Source: Bacteroidales bacterium Bact_19 (GTDB lineage: Bacteria > Bacteroidota > Bacteroidia > Bacteroidales > ML635J-15). Taken from it: a stretch of 62,674 nucleotides of DNA. A model generated the notes under the pieces. That model was not told the DNA's origin and made no database searches. It was given only the letters and a program-made list of their open reading frames with translations. Where the stretch lies: assembly GCA_001603595.1 (NCBI GenBank), contig LUZK01000007.1, positions 1 through 62,674 of the forward strand. The letters run 5' to 3'. This document shows, in pieces, positions 34,157-40,603 of the stretch (positions are counted from its first letter, which is position 1; each line of letters starts with the position of its first letter). A program made the translations under genes and the position numbers.

Positions 34157-35605
34157 ATGGAAAAAGAACAGGATAAGATTTTGCAGGACTTCACCTCATC
34201 GGAATATAAATTTGGTTTTATCTCTGATATTGAATATGAACATTTTCCCAAAGGATTAAACGAAGACATAATAAGATTGTTATCAGAAAAGAAGAATGAA
34301 CCGGAATGGCTTCTGGAATTCAGATTAAAAGCTTTTGAAAGATGGAAAAATATGAAGATGCCAAAGTGGGCACATTTAGAAATTCCGGAAATTAATTATC
34401 AGGATTTGATATATTATGCAGCTCCTAAACAAAAAGCAAAATATGCAAGTTTAGATGAAATTGATCCAGAAATAAAAGCGACTTTCGACAAACTTGGAAT
34501 ACCTATCGGAGAACAGAAGAGATTATCTGGAGTTGCAATGGATGCTGTTTTAGATTCGGTATCGGTAAAAACTACATTTCAAGAAACACTCGCCGAAAAA
34601 GGAATAATATTCTGCTCATTCAGCGAAGCAGTGAAAGAACACCCTGATCTTGTAAAAAAATATTTAGGTTCGGTTGTACCTTACGGAGATAATTATTTTG
34701 CTGCATTAAATTCAGCAGTTTTCAGCGACGGATCGTTTTGTTACATTCCTAAGGGAGTAAGATGTCCTATGGAATTATCCACATACTTTAGAATAAATGC
34801 AGCAAACAGCGGACAATTTGAAAGAACTTTAATTGTTGCCGACGAAGACTCTTACGTGAGTTACATGGAAGGATGTACAGCTCCGATGAGAGACGAAAAA
34901 CAATTACATGCTGCTGTGGTGGAAATTGTGGCATTAAAAAATGCTGAAGTAAAATATTCAACAGTACAAAATTGGTATCCGGGTGATAAAGAAGGAAAAG
35001 GCGGTATTTATAATTTTGTTACAAAAAGAGGAATTTGTAAAGGCGATAACTCAAAAATTTCATGGACACAAGTTGAAACGGGGTCAGCAATAACATGGAA
35101 ATACCCGAGTACAATACTTAAAGGAGATAATTCAGTGTCGGAGTTTTATTCAGTAGCAGTAACAAATCATTTTCAACAAGCTGATACAGGAACAAAAATG
35201 ATACATCTCGGGAAAAATACCAGCAGCACTATTGTTTCAAAAGGTATTTCTGCCGGCCGAAGTAATAATTCATACAGAGGTCTGGTAAAAATTGCCAAAA
35301 ATGCGGTTAATTCCAGAAATTTTTCTCAATGCGACAGTTTGCTGCTTGGCGATAAATGTGGAGCTCACACTTTCCCGTATATCGAAGTAGAAAACGAAAG
35401 TTCCATAGTAGAACACGAAGCTACTACCTCAAAAATAAGCGAAGATCAGATATTTTATTGCAATCAGCGTGGAATTTCCACTGAAGATGCAGTTGGATTA
35501 ATTGTAAACGGATATGCCAGAGAAGTTTTAAATAAATTGCCTATGGAATTTGCAGTAGAAGCTCAAAAACTTCTGCAAATAAGCCTTGAAGGAAGCGTCG
35601 GATAA
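34157..35605 (+). CDS. sufB: Fe-S cluster assembly scaffold SufB
   Basis: The 482-residue SufB is the scaffold subunit of the SufBCD complex, on which Fe-S clusters are built in the cytosol. The central and C-terminal beta-helix shows [20 protein letters not shown] near 193, [20 protein letters not shown] near 236, a GCTAP motif, and C-terminal [21 protein letters not shown] near 440. The conserved cysteine in [19 protein letters not shown] (near 392) is present. Its stop overlaps the next gene by one base (TAATG). It is the first gene of the suf operon; no sufE, sufS or sufU is in this window. Confidence 0.96.
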
Positions 35606-36141
35606 TGAATAAAAACAATAACATAGAAACATTTTTGAACACAAACAGAATTATGCGAGAACATGCAATTGTTAAGCTCAACTCAAATCCTGATTTGATT
35701 AAAGAAATTGCTGAATATTCCCTTTCCGACAATCCAGATTCATGGAGAGCAGTATGGATTCTTAACCTATATCTTGACAGATATGGTGAACAGAAAATAA
35801 TCTCCCAATACAGCGATGCGTTCATAGAAAATTTACAGAAGAAAATAAAAGACGGACACATAAGAGAAATTATAAAACTATTAACAAAAATTAAACTAAG
35901 TGAAGAACAAGAATCGGAAGTTTTCGACTATTGTTATTCTCAACTTTCAAACAATAAGATACAAGCTTCAGTTAGGGCAGTATGTTTTCAATTTATATTA
36001 AACACATCAAAAAAATATCCCGAAATAACCGAAGAAATAGAATACATTTTTAATGATATTAAAAATTATTTAAGCCGAGGTATTAGAAGCAGTATTCAAA
36101 ATAAGATAGTCAAAACAAAATTGTTGAATAATAAAAAATAA
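35605..36141 (+). CDS. Helical-repeat protein between sufB and sufC, unknown function
   Basis: The 178-residue product is almost entirely predicted helix, with repeated amphipathic pairs such as AIVKLNSNPDLIKEIAEYSL and SWRAVWILNLYL, resembling HEAT or DNA-alkylation-repair-like helical repeats. There is no signal peptide, metal-binding cysteine cluster or catalytic motif. It overlaps the sufB stop by one base and ends 4 bases before sufC, so it is almost certainly co-translated with the cluster-assembly machinery. It could be a scaffold or chaperone for SufBCD, but that rests on position only. Confidence 0.75.
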   Translation: MNKNNNIETFLNTNRIMREHAIVKLNSNPDLIKEIAEYSLSDNPDSWRAVWILNLYLDRYGEQKIISQYSDAFIENLQKKIKDGHIREIIKLLTKIKLSEEQESEVFDYCYSQLSNNKIQASVRAVCFQFILNTSKKYPEITEEIEYIFNDIKNYLSRGIRSSIQNKIVKTKLLNNKK

Positions 36142-36145
36142 GAAT

Positions 36146-36886
36146 ATGTTATCAATAAAAGATTTACATGCCGAAATAAACGGAAAAGAAATATTAAAAG
36201 GTATAAATCTCGAGATTAAAAGCGGGGAAGTTCATGCCATAATGGGACCTAACGGATCAGGAAAATCTACACTTGCATCTGTATTGGCAGGTAAGGAAGA
36301 ATACGAAATTACAAAAGGCGAAATTATCTATATGGAAAAAAATTTACTTGATCTTTCGGTAGAAGAAAGAGCTAAAGAAGGTATTTTTCTAAGTTTTCAA
36401 TATCCTGTAGAGATTCCCGGTGTGAGCATGATTAATTTTATGAAAACAGCCGTAAACGAACATCGCAAATATCAAGGGCTACCGCCAATAAGTTCGGCTG
36501 AATTTTTGAAATACATGCGTGAAATGAAAGATCTTGTCGAATTAAAATCTGATCTTGCAAACCGTTCAGTAAATCAAGGATTTAGCGGAGGTGAAAAAAA
36601 ACGTAATGAAATTTTTCAGATGGCAATGCTTAAACCTAAACTTGCCATACTCGACGAAACAGATTCCGGATTGGATATTGATGCTTTAAGAATCGTAGCA
36701 AATGGTGTTAATAAACTTAAAACCAATGAAAATTCCATAATTGTTATTACTCACTATCAAAGATTGCTTGATTATATAGTTCCGGATTTTGTTCATATCT
36801 TATTCGATGGCAAAATAGTAAAATCAGGAACTAAAGAGCTGGCATTGGAATTAGAACAAAAAGGCTATAATTGGATTAAAGAATAA
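36146..36886 (+). CDS. sufC: Fe-S cluster assembly ATPase SufC
   Basis: The 246-residue ABC-type ATPase of the SufBCD complex has a Walker A GPNGSGKST near 35, a Q-loop LSFQYPVEIPGVSM near 88, the signature FSGGEKKRNEI near 148, a Walker B LAILDETDSGLD near 169 and the switch histidine in VITHYQRLLDYI near 210. It drives conformational change of the SufB-SufD scaffold. It lies 4 bases after the helical-repeat gene and 11 bases before the sufD ATG. The length is normal. Confidence 0.96.
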   Translation: MLSIKDLHAEINGKEILKGINLEIKSGEVHAIMGPNGSGKSTLASVLAGKEEYEITKGEIIYMEKNLLDLSVEERAKEGIFLSFQYPVEIPGVSMINFMKTAVNEHRKYQGLPPISSAEFLKYMREMKDLVELKSDLANRSVNQGFSGGEKKRNEIFQMAMLKPKLAILDETDSGLDIDALRIVANGVNKLKTNENSIIVITHYQRLLDYIVPDFVHILFDGKIVKSGTKELALELEQKGYNWIKE

Positions 36887-36897
36887 AATTCTTGAAT

Positions 36898-38262
36898 ATG
36901 GATATTGAAACTTCTTATAAAAAATATATAAGGCTTTTTGAAGAAATATCTTCAAAACTTAAAAATGAAGATAGCGAGTTTGTTTTCAATACTCGCATGG
37001 CGGCTTTTAAAAAATTCAAAGATGCAGGATTACCGGATCATAATCACGAAAACTATAAATATGCCGGCATAGCGGAAATTTTATCAGAAGATTATGAGTT
37101 TTCTTTAGAATCACGACAAGCTCTGGTTGATTTAAACCAATTTTTTGAATGTGAAGTTAAAGATTTAGACACTCATGTTATTTTACTTTCAAACGGTGAA
37201 TATTATCAAAACAATAAACCCATAGAGGGCATCAACGAAAATGTTATTATTTGCAGTTTGAAAGAAGCAAAATTTAAACATAAAGAAATCTTTGAAAAAT
37301 ATTACAACAAGACCGTGTCAGAAAGCAATGACAGCTATGCTGCTCTAAATGCCATGTTTGCTAATGACGGATTATTTATTTATATTCCTGATAACACAAA
37401 AGTCAACAAAACCATTCAACTTGTAAATCTAACACATGGTTTCGGCAACAAAAACGTTTTCAAAAGAAATCTTGTTGTTGTTGGAAAAAATGCCGAATTA
37501 TCATTGATTATTTGTGATCACACCCTTAACAACAGTAAAAATTTCACCATTGACATCACAGAAAGTTATATTGAAGAAAACGGATATTTACAATATCATA
37601 CCTTGCAAAACGAACCTAACAAATCATCTGTAATAAACAATCTATTCATTCAACTTGAAAGATATGCAAGAATAAATTCTTTTGTATTGTCTTTACACGG
37701 AGGGATTATCAGAAATAATCTTTATGCAAAGCTTTCAGGAGAAAATTCCGAAGCAAATCTTTACGGAGTAAATTTAACAGACAGAAAACAAAGAATAGAC
37801 AATTTTACAATCATAGACCATATTTCTCCTAACAGTACAAGCAACGAACTTTACAAAGGCATTCTCGATGAAGAAGCCAAAGGATCATTTGCCGGAAGAA
37901 TTATTGTAAGGCCGGGAGCACAAAAGACAAATGCCTATCAAACAAACAAAAACATATGCCTCACGCCCGAAGCTAAGATGAGAACAAAACCACAACTGGA
38001 AATTTATGCCGATGATGTAAAATGCTCACATGGTGCAACAGTAGGTCAACTTGATGAAGATGCTCTTTTTTATTTAAGACAAAGAGGTATTGATTACAAA
38101 GAAGCACGCTTGCTATTAATGTTTGCTTTTGTAAATGATATTTTATTAAAAATGGAAATCGAGCCATTACGCAATAGAGTTGCAAGCCTTATAAATGCGA
38201 GATTACGTGGAGAGTTCAGCGACTGTTCACATTGTTTATTAAACTGTCATACAAGAGAATAA
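36898..38262 (+). CDS. sufD: Fe-S cluster assembly protein SufD
   Basis: SufD is the SufB-like partner in the SufBCD scaffold. The start at the ATG at 36898 gives 454 residues; a TTG two codons upstream is less likely. The C-terminal beta-helix holds RKQRIDNFTIIDHISPNSTSNELYKGIL near 300 and KCSHGATVGQLDEDALFYLRQRGI near 377, both SufD hallmarks, including the histidine in CSHGAT. The last residues (CSHCLLNCH) are cysteine-rich, which is not typical and may be a metal-binding tail. Only four bases separate it from the FeoB-like gene. Confidence 0.93.
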   Translation: MDIETSYKKYIRLFEEISSKLKNEDSEFVFNTRMAAFKKFKDAGLPDHNHENYKYAGIAEILSEDYEFSLESRQALVDLNQFFECEVKDLDTHVILLSNGEYYQNNKPIEGINENVIICSLKEAKFKHKEIFEKYYNKTVSESNDSYAALNAMFANDGLFIYIPDNTKVNKTIQLVNLTHGFGNKNVFKRNLVVVGKNAELSLIICDHTLNNSKNFTIDITESYIEENGYLQYHTLQNEPNKSSVINNLFIQLERYARINSFVLSLHGGIIRNNLYAKLSGENSEANLYGVNLTDRKQRIDNFTIIDHISPNSTSNELYKGILDEEAKGSFAGRIIVRPGAQKTNAYQTNKNICLTPEAKMRTKPQLEIYADDVKCSHGATVGQLDEDALFYLRQRGIDYKEARLLLMFAFVNDILLKMEIEPLRNRVASLINARLRGEFSDCSHCLLNCHTRE

Positions 38263-38266
38263 TACT

Positions 38267-40603
38267 ATGGTGCACACTCCGGAAGTAGAAATTGGAAGAG
38301 AATACTACATTAGTAAACTCACAGGTAGATGGGGCATTAGACGCAGAATAAATTCCATAGGGATAAATTCCGGGGAAAAAATCATTTTCATAAGAAAAAA
38401 CCGTAGCGGACAATATATTTTTAAATTTTCGGATAAGAAGAAAAAACAAAAGTTACCAAACAATTATCTTCATTTTATAAATCTTATTCCTACAGATGAT
38501 CCGAACTTTGAAATAAAGGCAATTGCAGATTCAAAAACTATTTACGTTGATATTTTTCGAAACGAAGATACTCCCTGTTTAAGTATTTTCGAAAAAGAAA
38601 ACGAATATAATTTTAATGACTACAAGTTCATAATAAACTATTTACCGGCAACATCTACAATTTACGGAGAACAATACGAAAGAAAAAAACTTAGAAACAA
38701 AATTTTCAGCGATTTTCCTGATGTTTTCTTTGGTATTTTAGACTTTAACAACCTCGAAAACGATTTGTTTCTTCTCACCCAATTTATTGACATGGATGCG
38801 AAAATTGTTTTGGTTGTTAAGAATTATGACGAAAGCAAACTCGAAAATCCTGTTGATTTCGACCTTTTGGGAAAACTTATTGGTATCCCGGTATTAACAA
38901 TAAAAGAAGTCGAAGGCGTTATTTCCGAAGAAGATAGAAAAAAACTTTTTGAAACTTTAATTCGCACTCACAAAGATATTGAGCCAGATGTTCGGCATGT
39001 GCACGTTAATTTTGGCAGAGAAATCGAAAAAAGTATTTCTAACATTAAAAAATTCTTAAAGCGAAGAACAAAAAACGATTTTATTGCTTCAGCACGATAT
39101 CTTGCTATTGGTTTGTTGGAAAACGACCCTCTGATTTATAAACTTTTTGAAAACGAAAAATGGTATAACAAATTAAAACAAAAACGCAAAACAGAGACCG
39201 AAAAGTTATCAAGTTTATATAACGACCATATTTTTAACATTATAAAAAATGCCAGAAAGGCTTTTGTGAGCGGTGCCATTAAAGAGATCAATGCCCCATA
39301 CCAACCGGAGACACTTACAAAAAAAATAGACAAAATAGTAACACATAAGTTCTGGGGGTTTCCGATTTTTATAGTTTTTATGACTTTAACATTTTACTCT
39401 ACTTTCGAAATAGGAAAATTTCCAATGCATTGGTTAGAAATTGGCATAGAACATTTAACAAACTATCTCGAAAAAACTCTGCCCCCCGGATTCTGGAAAG
39501 ATTTGATTATTAACGGAGCTATTGACGGTGTTGGAGGAGTTCTGGTTTTTCTGCCCAATATTTTTATACTTTTCTTTTTCATCGGATTTCTTGAAACATC
39601 AGGATATATGTCGCGTGCAGCCTTTATTATGGATAAATATATGCACAAAATTGGCTTACACGGTAAATCATTTATCCCTATGATTATGGGATTCGGGTGT
39701 ACTGTACCGGCTATTTTAAGCACACGTATCCTCGAAAATAAAAGAGACAGAATACTCACAATGCTTGTCGTACCCTTTATGTCATGTTCTGCTCGTTTGC
39801 CTGTGTATATTTTGCTTATATCGGCATTTTTTCCCGAACAGCCGGTTCTGATCCTTTTTGGAATTTACGGTTTTGGAATTATGCTGGCAATGATTGTATC
39901 TTTGTTTTTCAGTAAAACCATTTTAAAACAGAAAGAAAATCCATATATAATGGAGCTTATGCCATACAAACGTCCAAGTATAAAACTACTGCTTTATTAC
40001 ACCTGGACACGAGGCAAAGAATATTTAAAAAAAATAGGAGGTATAATTCTGATTGGATCCGTAATAATCTGGCTATTGGGTTATTTTCCAAGGAATGTAG
40101 AATACAGCAAAAATTATGATGATCTTATAAGCAAAGCAAAAAGTACTGAAGAAATTAATGCCCTTTTACTCAAGAAGGAGGCAGAACATCACAAACTTTC
40201 CTACATCGGACAAATAGGTTCTATCATTGAACCTGTAATGCGACCTCTGGGGTTTGATTGGAAAATGAGTATAAGTTTAGTAGCAGGCATAGCCGGAAAA
40301 GAAATTACGGTTAGCACAATGGGAGTACTTTATCAAGCTAAAGACGAAGGACACTCTTTGCAGAACAAATTAAAATCCGAAGTATATAATTCAGGTCCAA
40401 AAGCAGGACAACCTGTTTTCAACAAACTTGTTGCTCTGGCATTCATGTTTTTTGTTTTAATATATTTTCCGTGTATGGCTGTAATTTCAGCCATCTGGAA
40501 AGAATCTAAATTCAAGTGGGCAGTTTTTACGGCAGTTTATACCACAACATTAGCATGGTTAGTAGCCTTTGCCATATATCAAATAGGAAGTATTACACAG
40601 TGA
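38267..40603 (+). CDS. FeoA-FeoB-type membrane transporter with a degenerate GTPase domain
   Basis: The 778-residue protein has a FeoA-like SH3 region (residues 5-72), a remnant of the FeoB G domain (about 82-235), and an intact FeoB membrane domain (about 360-778) with GFLETSGYMSRAAFIMD, the gate MGFGCTVPAILSTR near 475 and SCSARLPVY near 506. In the G-domain stretch no GxxxxGKS Walker A exists, the G3 DLPG reads NYLPATS (124-130), and G4 (NxxD) reads KNYDES (185-190). FeoB uses GTP to drive Fe(II) import; this copy appears unable to bind GTP. It follows sufD by four bases, so it may serve iron import or sensing for cluster assembly. Confidence 0.85.
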   Translation: MVHTPEVEIGREYYISKLTGRWGIRRRINSIGINSGEKIIFIRKNRSGQYIFKFSDKKKKQKLPNNYLHFINLIPTDDPNFEIKAIADSKTIYVDIFRNEDTPCLSIFEKENEYNFNDYKFIINYLPATSTIYGEQYERKKLRNKIFSDFPDVFFGILDFNNLENDLFLLTQFIDMDAKIVLVVKNYDESKLENPVDFDLLGKLIGIPVLTIKEVEGVISEEDRKKLFETLIRTHKDIEPDVRHVHVNFGREIEKSISNIKKFLKRRTKNDFIASARYLAIGLLENDPLIYKLFENEKWYNKLKQKRKTETEKLSSLYNDHIFNIIKNARKAFVSGAIKEINAPYQPETLTKKIDKIVTHKFWGFPIFIVFMTLTFYSTFEIGKFPMHWLEIGIEHLTNYLEKTLPPGFWKDLIINGAIDGVGGVLVFLPNIFILFFFIGFLETSGYMSRAAFIMDKYMHKIGLHGKSFIPMIMGFGCTVPAILSTRILENKRDRILTMLVVPFMSCSARLPVYILLISAFFPEQPVLILFGIYGFGIMLAMIVSLFFSKTILKQKENPYIMELMPYKRPSIKLLLYYTWTRGKEYLKKIGGIILIGSVIIWLLGYFPRNVEYSKNYDDLISKAKSTEEINALLLKKEAEHHKLSYIGQIGSIIEPVMRPLGFDWKMSISLVAGIAGKEITVSTMGVLYQAKDEGHSLQNKLKSEVYNSGPKAGQPVFNKLVALAFMFFVLIYFPCMAVISAIWKESKFKWAVFTAVYTTTLAWLVAFAIYQIGSITQ

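Follow-up and report, generated by a model that had tools for sequence, protein, structure and literature searches.

The closest described system is FeoAB of Bacteroides fragilis, in which FeoA is fused ahead of the G, GDI, and FeoB membrane domains and which, according to the accessible part of PMC8980893, binds and hydrolyzes GTP. We analyzed a stretch of 62,674 nucleotides from Bacteroidales bacterium Bact_19 (contig LUZK01000007.1; "the window" refers to this whole stretch) that encodes a protein of the same layout, termed FeoAB* here. Unlike B. fragilis FeoAB, FeoAB* carries a deletion of the nucleotide site, and its FeoA part is eroded. Gate-domain proteins without a G domain also exist and represent the Gate fold minus the GTPase; FeoAB* differs from these in that it has both a G and a GDI domain, which are conserved. 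The pseudoGTPase domains of p190RhoGAP, for which the accessible part of PMC5593906 describes a GTPase-like domain retained as a non-canonical domain, offer a parallel only, as p190RhoGAP is a eukaryotic signaling protein. In the open-license FeoB literature, with most subscription papers lying outside the search, none of the titles and abstract openings listed points to a FeoB that lacks its GTPase; the accessible sections of PMC11406355, PMC3153494, and PMC9164220 hold nothing on the subject.

The feoAB* gene of the window is an uninterrupted ORF of 778 amino acids on the plus strand (positions 38267–40603) and consists of a FeoA-like part, a pseudo-G domain, a GDI domain, and a FeoB membrane domain. 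TIGR00437, the whole-protein model for FeoB, scores the protein with 441.9 bits (cut-off 315.65). Two Gate stretches, FeoB_C, and FeoB_Cyto all exceed their Pfam cut-offs, FeoB_N is matched in part, and the GDI helices and pore cysteines of FeoB are present as well. Unlike the FeoBs that the model describes, FeoAB* lacks the P-loop, switch I, and G3 and has lost the G4 asparagine, a change that stays hidden because TIGR00437 calls the protein a plain FeoB.

Residues ∼1–75 (38267–38491, plus strand) form the eroded FeoA-like domain, which stays below the Pfam FeoA cut-off (15.4 versus 23 bits) and for which β-strands are predicted at residues 12–18, 38–44, 50–54, 60–63, and 71–75. The initial annotation had described the gene as a FeoA–FeoB fusion; the FeoB assignment stands by TIGR00437, whereas the FeoA portion survives only in this eroded form. 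In two relatives, the FeoA domain reached 27.2 and 33.0 bits (G029) and a borderline 22.4 and 28.7 bits (G028) in two scans each, against the same cut-off. The pseudo-GTPase domain follows at residues ∼76–236 (38492–38974, plus strand), as delineated by the FeoB_N match, by phmmer matches to solved NFeoB chains, and by a model of the front half. The FeoB_N match extends over residues 107–216 and covers only positions 35–145 of the 156-position profile; because it begins at position 35, the front of the domain with the P-loop (the G1 part) is missing. The GDI-type helical domain (FeoB_Cyto in Pfam; 39002–39292, plus strand) leads over to the FeoB membrane domain with its two Gate stretches and FeoB_C (39311–40600, plus strand), which is supported by Pfam, TIGR00437, and conserved alignment columns.

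Between residues 92 and 119, the window protein possesses 27 residues, whereas all 92 normal FeoB rows of our alignment possess 46 at the corresponding place, so that the P-loop, helix 1, and switch I have been deleted (19 residues). According to two structure models and the residue spacing, they are replaced by a 14-residue loop (residues 99–112; 38561–38602, plus strand). The G3 equivalent, located by its motif in the alignment, is NYLPATS (38636–38656, plus strand), with YLPATS in place of the DLPGTYS of normal FeoBs, and the G4 equivalent, located likewise, is KNYDES (38819–38836, plus strand) in place of NMYDEL. None of the features that mark a GTPase of this type (a G1 P-loop GNPNxGKT, switch I, G3 DLPG, and G4 N-x-x-D) was found in FeoAB*. 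The absence of the G1 loop and the two altered motifs, all noted in the initial annotation, are thus borne out by the truncated FeoB_N match and by alignment with normal FeoBs. Its further view, that the region is a decayed or repurposed domain rather than a deletion, is right as to an altered domain, which recurs throughout most of the family, but not as to the deletion, which removes 19 residues.

A profile search with the front half detected the G1-less form in 27 of the 31 genomes of the window's family, a family of uncultured Bacteroidales: 14 of type A, which includes the window, and 13 of type B. For comparison with the 92 normal rows, we aligned 26 pseudo rows (14 of type A and 12 of type B), excluding the type B genome G008, in which the pseudo copy lies in two pieces on two contigs. 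The deletion is found in all 26 rows and comprises 19 residues in 24 and 14 residues in 2 of them. The GK of the P-loop, the aspartate and glycine of G3, and the asparagine of G4 are each missing from every pseudo row. What persists is the first P-loop glycine in 2/14 type A rows and the G4 aspartate in 9/14 type A rows (the window among them) and 0/12 type B rows. Judged from these alignments, the nucleotide site of FeoAB* is gone, including the P-loop, helix 1, switch I, G3, and G4.

The remaining family genomes contain a normal FeoAB (G026 and G030), a divergent FeoB (G025), or no FeoB (G011). G025, a genus member, has as its sole FeoB a protein (L072) of about 25% identity that carries a FeoA domain and whose P-loop is intact; in G011, a genus member of 89% completeness, FeoB, ZIP, and Nramp are all without a match. 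Full-length family members score 417–534 bits with the front-half profile. When 393 genomes of the order were surveyed at a strict threshold, under which a far more divergent form would escape notice, scores above 500 bits came from five family genomes, and no genome outside the family exceeded 221 bits; the best five outsiders all have the P-loop. Among the best 80 of 155 confirmed stretches in a search of named genomes, 23 represent the G1-less form and 57 have a P-loop. In a survey of the phylum, each of the matches listed, which are part of the total, begins at model position 1.

A second FeoB was not found in any of the 14 type A genomes, 8 of which are at least 95% complete, nor was a second feoB found in the assembly of the window genome (3.07 Mb, 98.75% complete), where the initial annotation had proposed to look for a normal copy. 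The same search recovered the normal copy in 12/13 type B genomes and the FeoB of G025 with its ∼25% identity; a second match in G010 is the end of the same feoAB* gene. In type B, a GTPase-competent FeoAB with a P-loop accompanies the pseudo copy in 12/13 genomes, the exception being G021 (80% complete). The titles of five of the 11 named type B records mention yak, water buffalo, or red deer; another five records carry RUG isolate names, which we take to denote rumen genomes. In type A, 10 of the 14 copies have a full-length ORF without interruption; the others have an in-frame stop (G012) or a frame break (G010) or lie at contig ends (G001 and G020).

In contrast to the nucleotide site, the membrane domain and its gate appear intact, as proposed initially. 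The pore cysteine motifs GFGCxVPA, SCSARLP, and FPC are present in the window protein. The Gate 1 motif GFGCTVPA with Cys-478 (39689–39712, plus strand) and the SCSARLP motif with Cys-507 (39782–39802, plus strand) are unaltered, and both cysteines occur in 26/26 pseudo and 92/92 normal rows. The Gate 2 region, assigned by motif and alignment, extends from Pro-656 to Thr-684 (40232–40318, plus strand), and a further conserved cysteine, Cys-736 (40472–40474, plus strand), is present in each of the 23 pseudo rows that extend this far. Type B proteins show the gate-motif variants GFGCSIP and CAARVP or CAAKIP. When gaps of incomplete rows are scored as losses, 84% of the 131 membrane columns that are ≥90% conserved in the 92 normal rows persist in type A and 61% in type B, and the corresponding values for 109 front-half columns are 38 and 30%. 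Between the window protein and its nearest relative (91% identity over 776 residues), dN/dS (Nei–Gojobori, this one pair) is 0.077 for the FeoA part, 0.125 for the pseudo-G domain, 0.040 for the GDI domain, and 0.068 for the membrane domain, indicating, as far as a single pair can tell, that the pseudo-G domain is under purifying selection.

AlphaFold2 modeled the whole protein with a mean pLDDT of 81.2 and a pTM of 0.53 (46 sequences, normal and pseudo) and the front half with a pLDDT of 88.2 and a pTM of 0.85 (19 pseudo sequences). Neither model places a helix between the strands at residues 91–98 and 113–116, and both can be read as the strand order of a GTPase minus helix 1. Superposition of the front-half model with NFeoB crystal structures gave TM-scores over the target of 0.74–0.83 among the 50 matches listed. 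FeoAB* is therefore predicted to contain a pseudo-GTPase, that is, a domain that keeps the GTPase fold and has lost the nucleotide motifs.

In trees of the membrane half, pseudo and normal rows are separated by one fully supported branch (SH-aLRT 100 with 118 rows; 100/100 with 59 rows, comprising 4/12 type B rows, 4/12 normal copies of type B, and 38/80 other normal rows, with L022 of G001 excluded). Type A does not form one clade in either tree, and a single type A clade is unrejected (AU p = 0.831). The stem of type B is very long, with 2.27 and 1.94 changes per column. The normal copies of type B branch from within the FeoBs of other families of Bacteroidales (support of 100/99 in the 59-row tree), which would mean a later gain. 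Their place in both trees favors such a horizontal gain, but we do not claim it, since with the 118-row tree the AU test left a grouping of these copies with the pseudo clade unrejected (p = 0.554). Among the pseudo rows of the 59-row tree, G028 and G029 stand nearest to the normal rows. These two have the shorter deletion, with 32 residues left, and a FeoA domain over or near the cut-off, features as an early stage would show them.

In the window, feoAB is the last gene of a putative operon on the plus strand that consists of sufB (34157–35605), a 178-amino acid ORF with no family over cut-off (35605–36141), sufC (36146–36886), and sufD (36892–38262), which ends 4 bp before feoAB. Matches to the 178-amino acid ORF with 34–83% identity occur in L079, L080, L083, L084, and L085 (in pieces), and none occurs in L081. 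In 6 of 12 further type A loci, feoAB lies directly after sufD; in one more it follows suf at a distance of 1.5 kb, and the other 5 lack suf there; none of 11 type B loci has suf upstream of feoAB, with the available upstream sequence being short in two loci (∼1.9 kb in L086 and ∼0.2 kb in L093). The position behind suf genes, which the initial annotation proposed to look for in other genomes, thus holds for part of type A only. On these counts, the case for iron import coupled to cluster assembly is weak, and we rejected suf coupling as a general rule. In L087 and L088, the neighbors look by eye like rpsB and tsf. In L085 (G012), sufB, the 178-amino acid ORF, sufD, and feoAB contain one in-frame stop each, which reflects either an assembly error or a decaying operon.

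The best reading of these observations, and one to which we give somewhat better than even chances, is that FeoAB* is an FeoAB-type Fe2+ permease whose intramolecular GTPase became a pseudo-GTPase. Fe2+ would pass the gates without GTP gating, flowing down its gradient or driven by the membrane potential, in anaerobes presumed to live where enough Fe2+ is around, and the retained pseudo-G/GDI module might form a cap with a structural or regulatory role. Among the roles offered in the initial annotation, the iron-permeable channel is therefore the one we consider most likely. In type B, the pseudo copy would have carried the transport load before the GTPase-competent FeoB; the drift of the type B core beside the latter is expected if this was so. 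In the accessible part of PMC4847171, GTP hydrolysis by FeoB is considered too slow to power active transport, with a transporter, a channel, and an antiporter all left open, and hydrolysis by the B. fragilis fusion is among the slowest (PMC8980893, in part). Against a GTP-independent permease, the same portion of PMC4847171 holds that the G domain of FeoB is needed, and that of PMC8980893 refers to studies that found transport to be dependent on hydrolysis of GTP.

The main rival, which we regard as rather unlikely but deserving of attention, is that FeoAB* is no longer an importer, that a ZIP (ZupT-like) or Nramp protein supplies Fe2+, and that the pseudo-GTPase protein senses a metal or acts as a regulator that binds a partner. 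ZIP exceeds the cut-off in 12/14 type A genomes; of the other two, G003 has Nramp above its cut-off, and neither family exceeds its cut-off in any of the 13 type B genomes. Because 13/14 type A genomes thus have ZIP or Nramp and FecCD is present in all 31 genomes of the family, iron import need not rest on FeoAB*. The window genome encodes two ZIPs (L201 and L202), one of which is ZupT by NCBIfam, and Escherichia coli ZupT is also able to carry iron (PMC3852070, accessible part). However, ZIP is also found in G026 and G030, whose only FeoB is a normal FeoAB, so that its presence does not mark replacement, and the pore cysteines and most conserved membrane columns are retained in type A. An improbable alternative is that a metal, Fe-S, or redox switch gates the permease; the FeoB lineage would then have discarded the GTP switch, and in most members a cysteine cluster of the GDI domain would have taken its place. 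The motif CxxCxxxxC is found there in 9/14 type A and 12/12 type B rows (21/26 pseudo rows, e.g. L084 and L091) and in 0/92 normal rows, and the suf linkage in part of type A fits such a switch. But the motif is missing from the window protein, G004, G003, G009, and G029 (which has two of the cysteines) and can therefore not be needed everywhere. If this alternative were true, a GTP-gated importer would have turned into one gated by iron status, and in some species its gene would immediately follow the SUF genes for Fe-S assembly.

That the gene is dying and heading for loss seems very improbable. The in-frame stop in G012, the frame break in G010, and the lack of a FeoB match in G011 would fit such a fate, but the low dN/dS in all four parts of the one pair compared largely refutes it, and the same deletion with common replacement residues across 26 rows and a confidently predicted fold speak against it, too. 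A sequencing, assembly, or frameshift error in the window is refuted for practical purposes by the recurrence of the G1-less form across the family and by the closeness of its nearest relative. Hence, the G1-less FeoB is neither a sequence error nor one decayed copy, and neither of the two outcomes by which the initial annotation could have failed came about, be it an error whose correction restores a Walker A loop or a pseudogene confined to this copy. In roughly half of the species sampled, the G1-less FeoB is the only FeoB found. Nature thus provides a way to test whether FeoB needs GTP at all, in which a natural protein with the pore but without the nucleotide site replaces an engineered mutant.

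We also considered a FeoB G domain supplied in trans and found none, as the other FeoB_N matches in the window genome are other GTPases, namely Der (two matches), Era, Obg, MnmE, HydF, YsxC, HflX, and YchF. HydF (L007), the maturation GTPase of [FeFe]-hydrogenase, fits an anaerobe.
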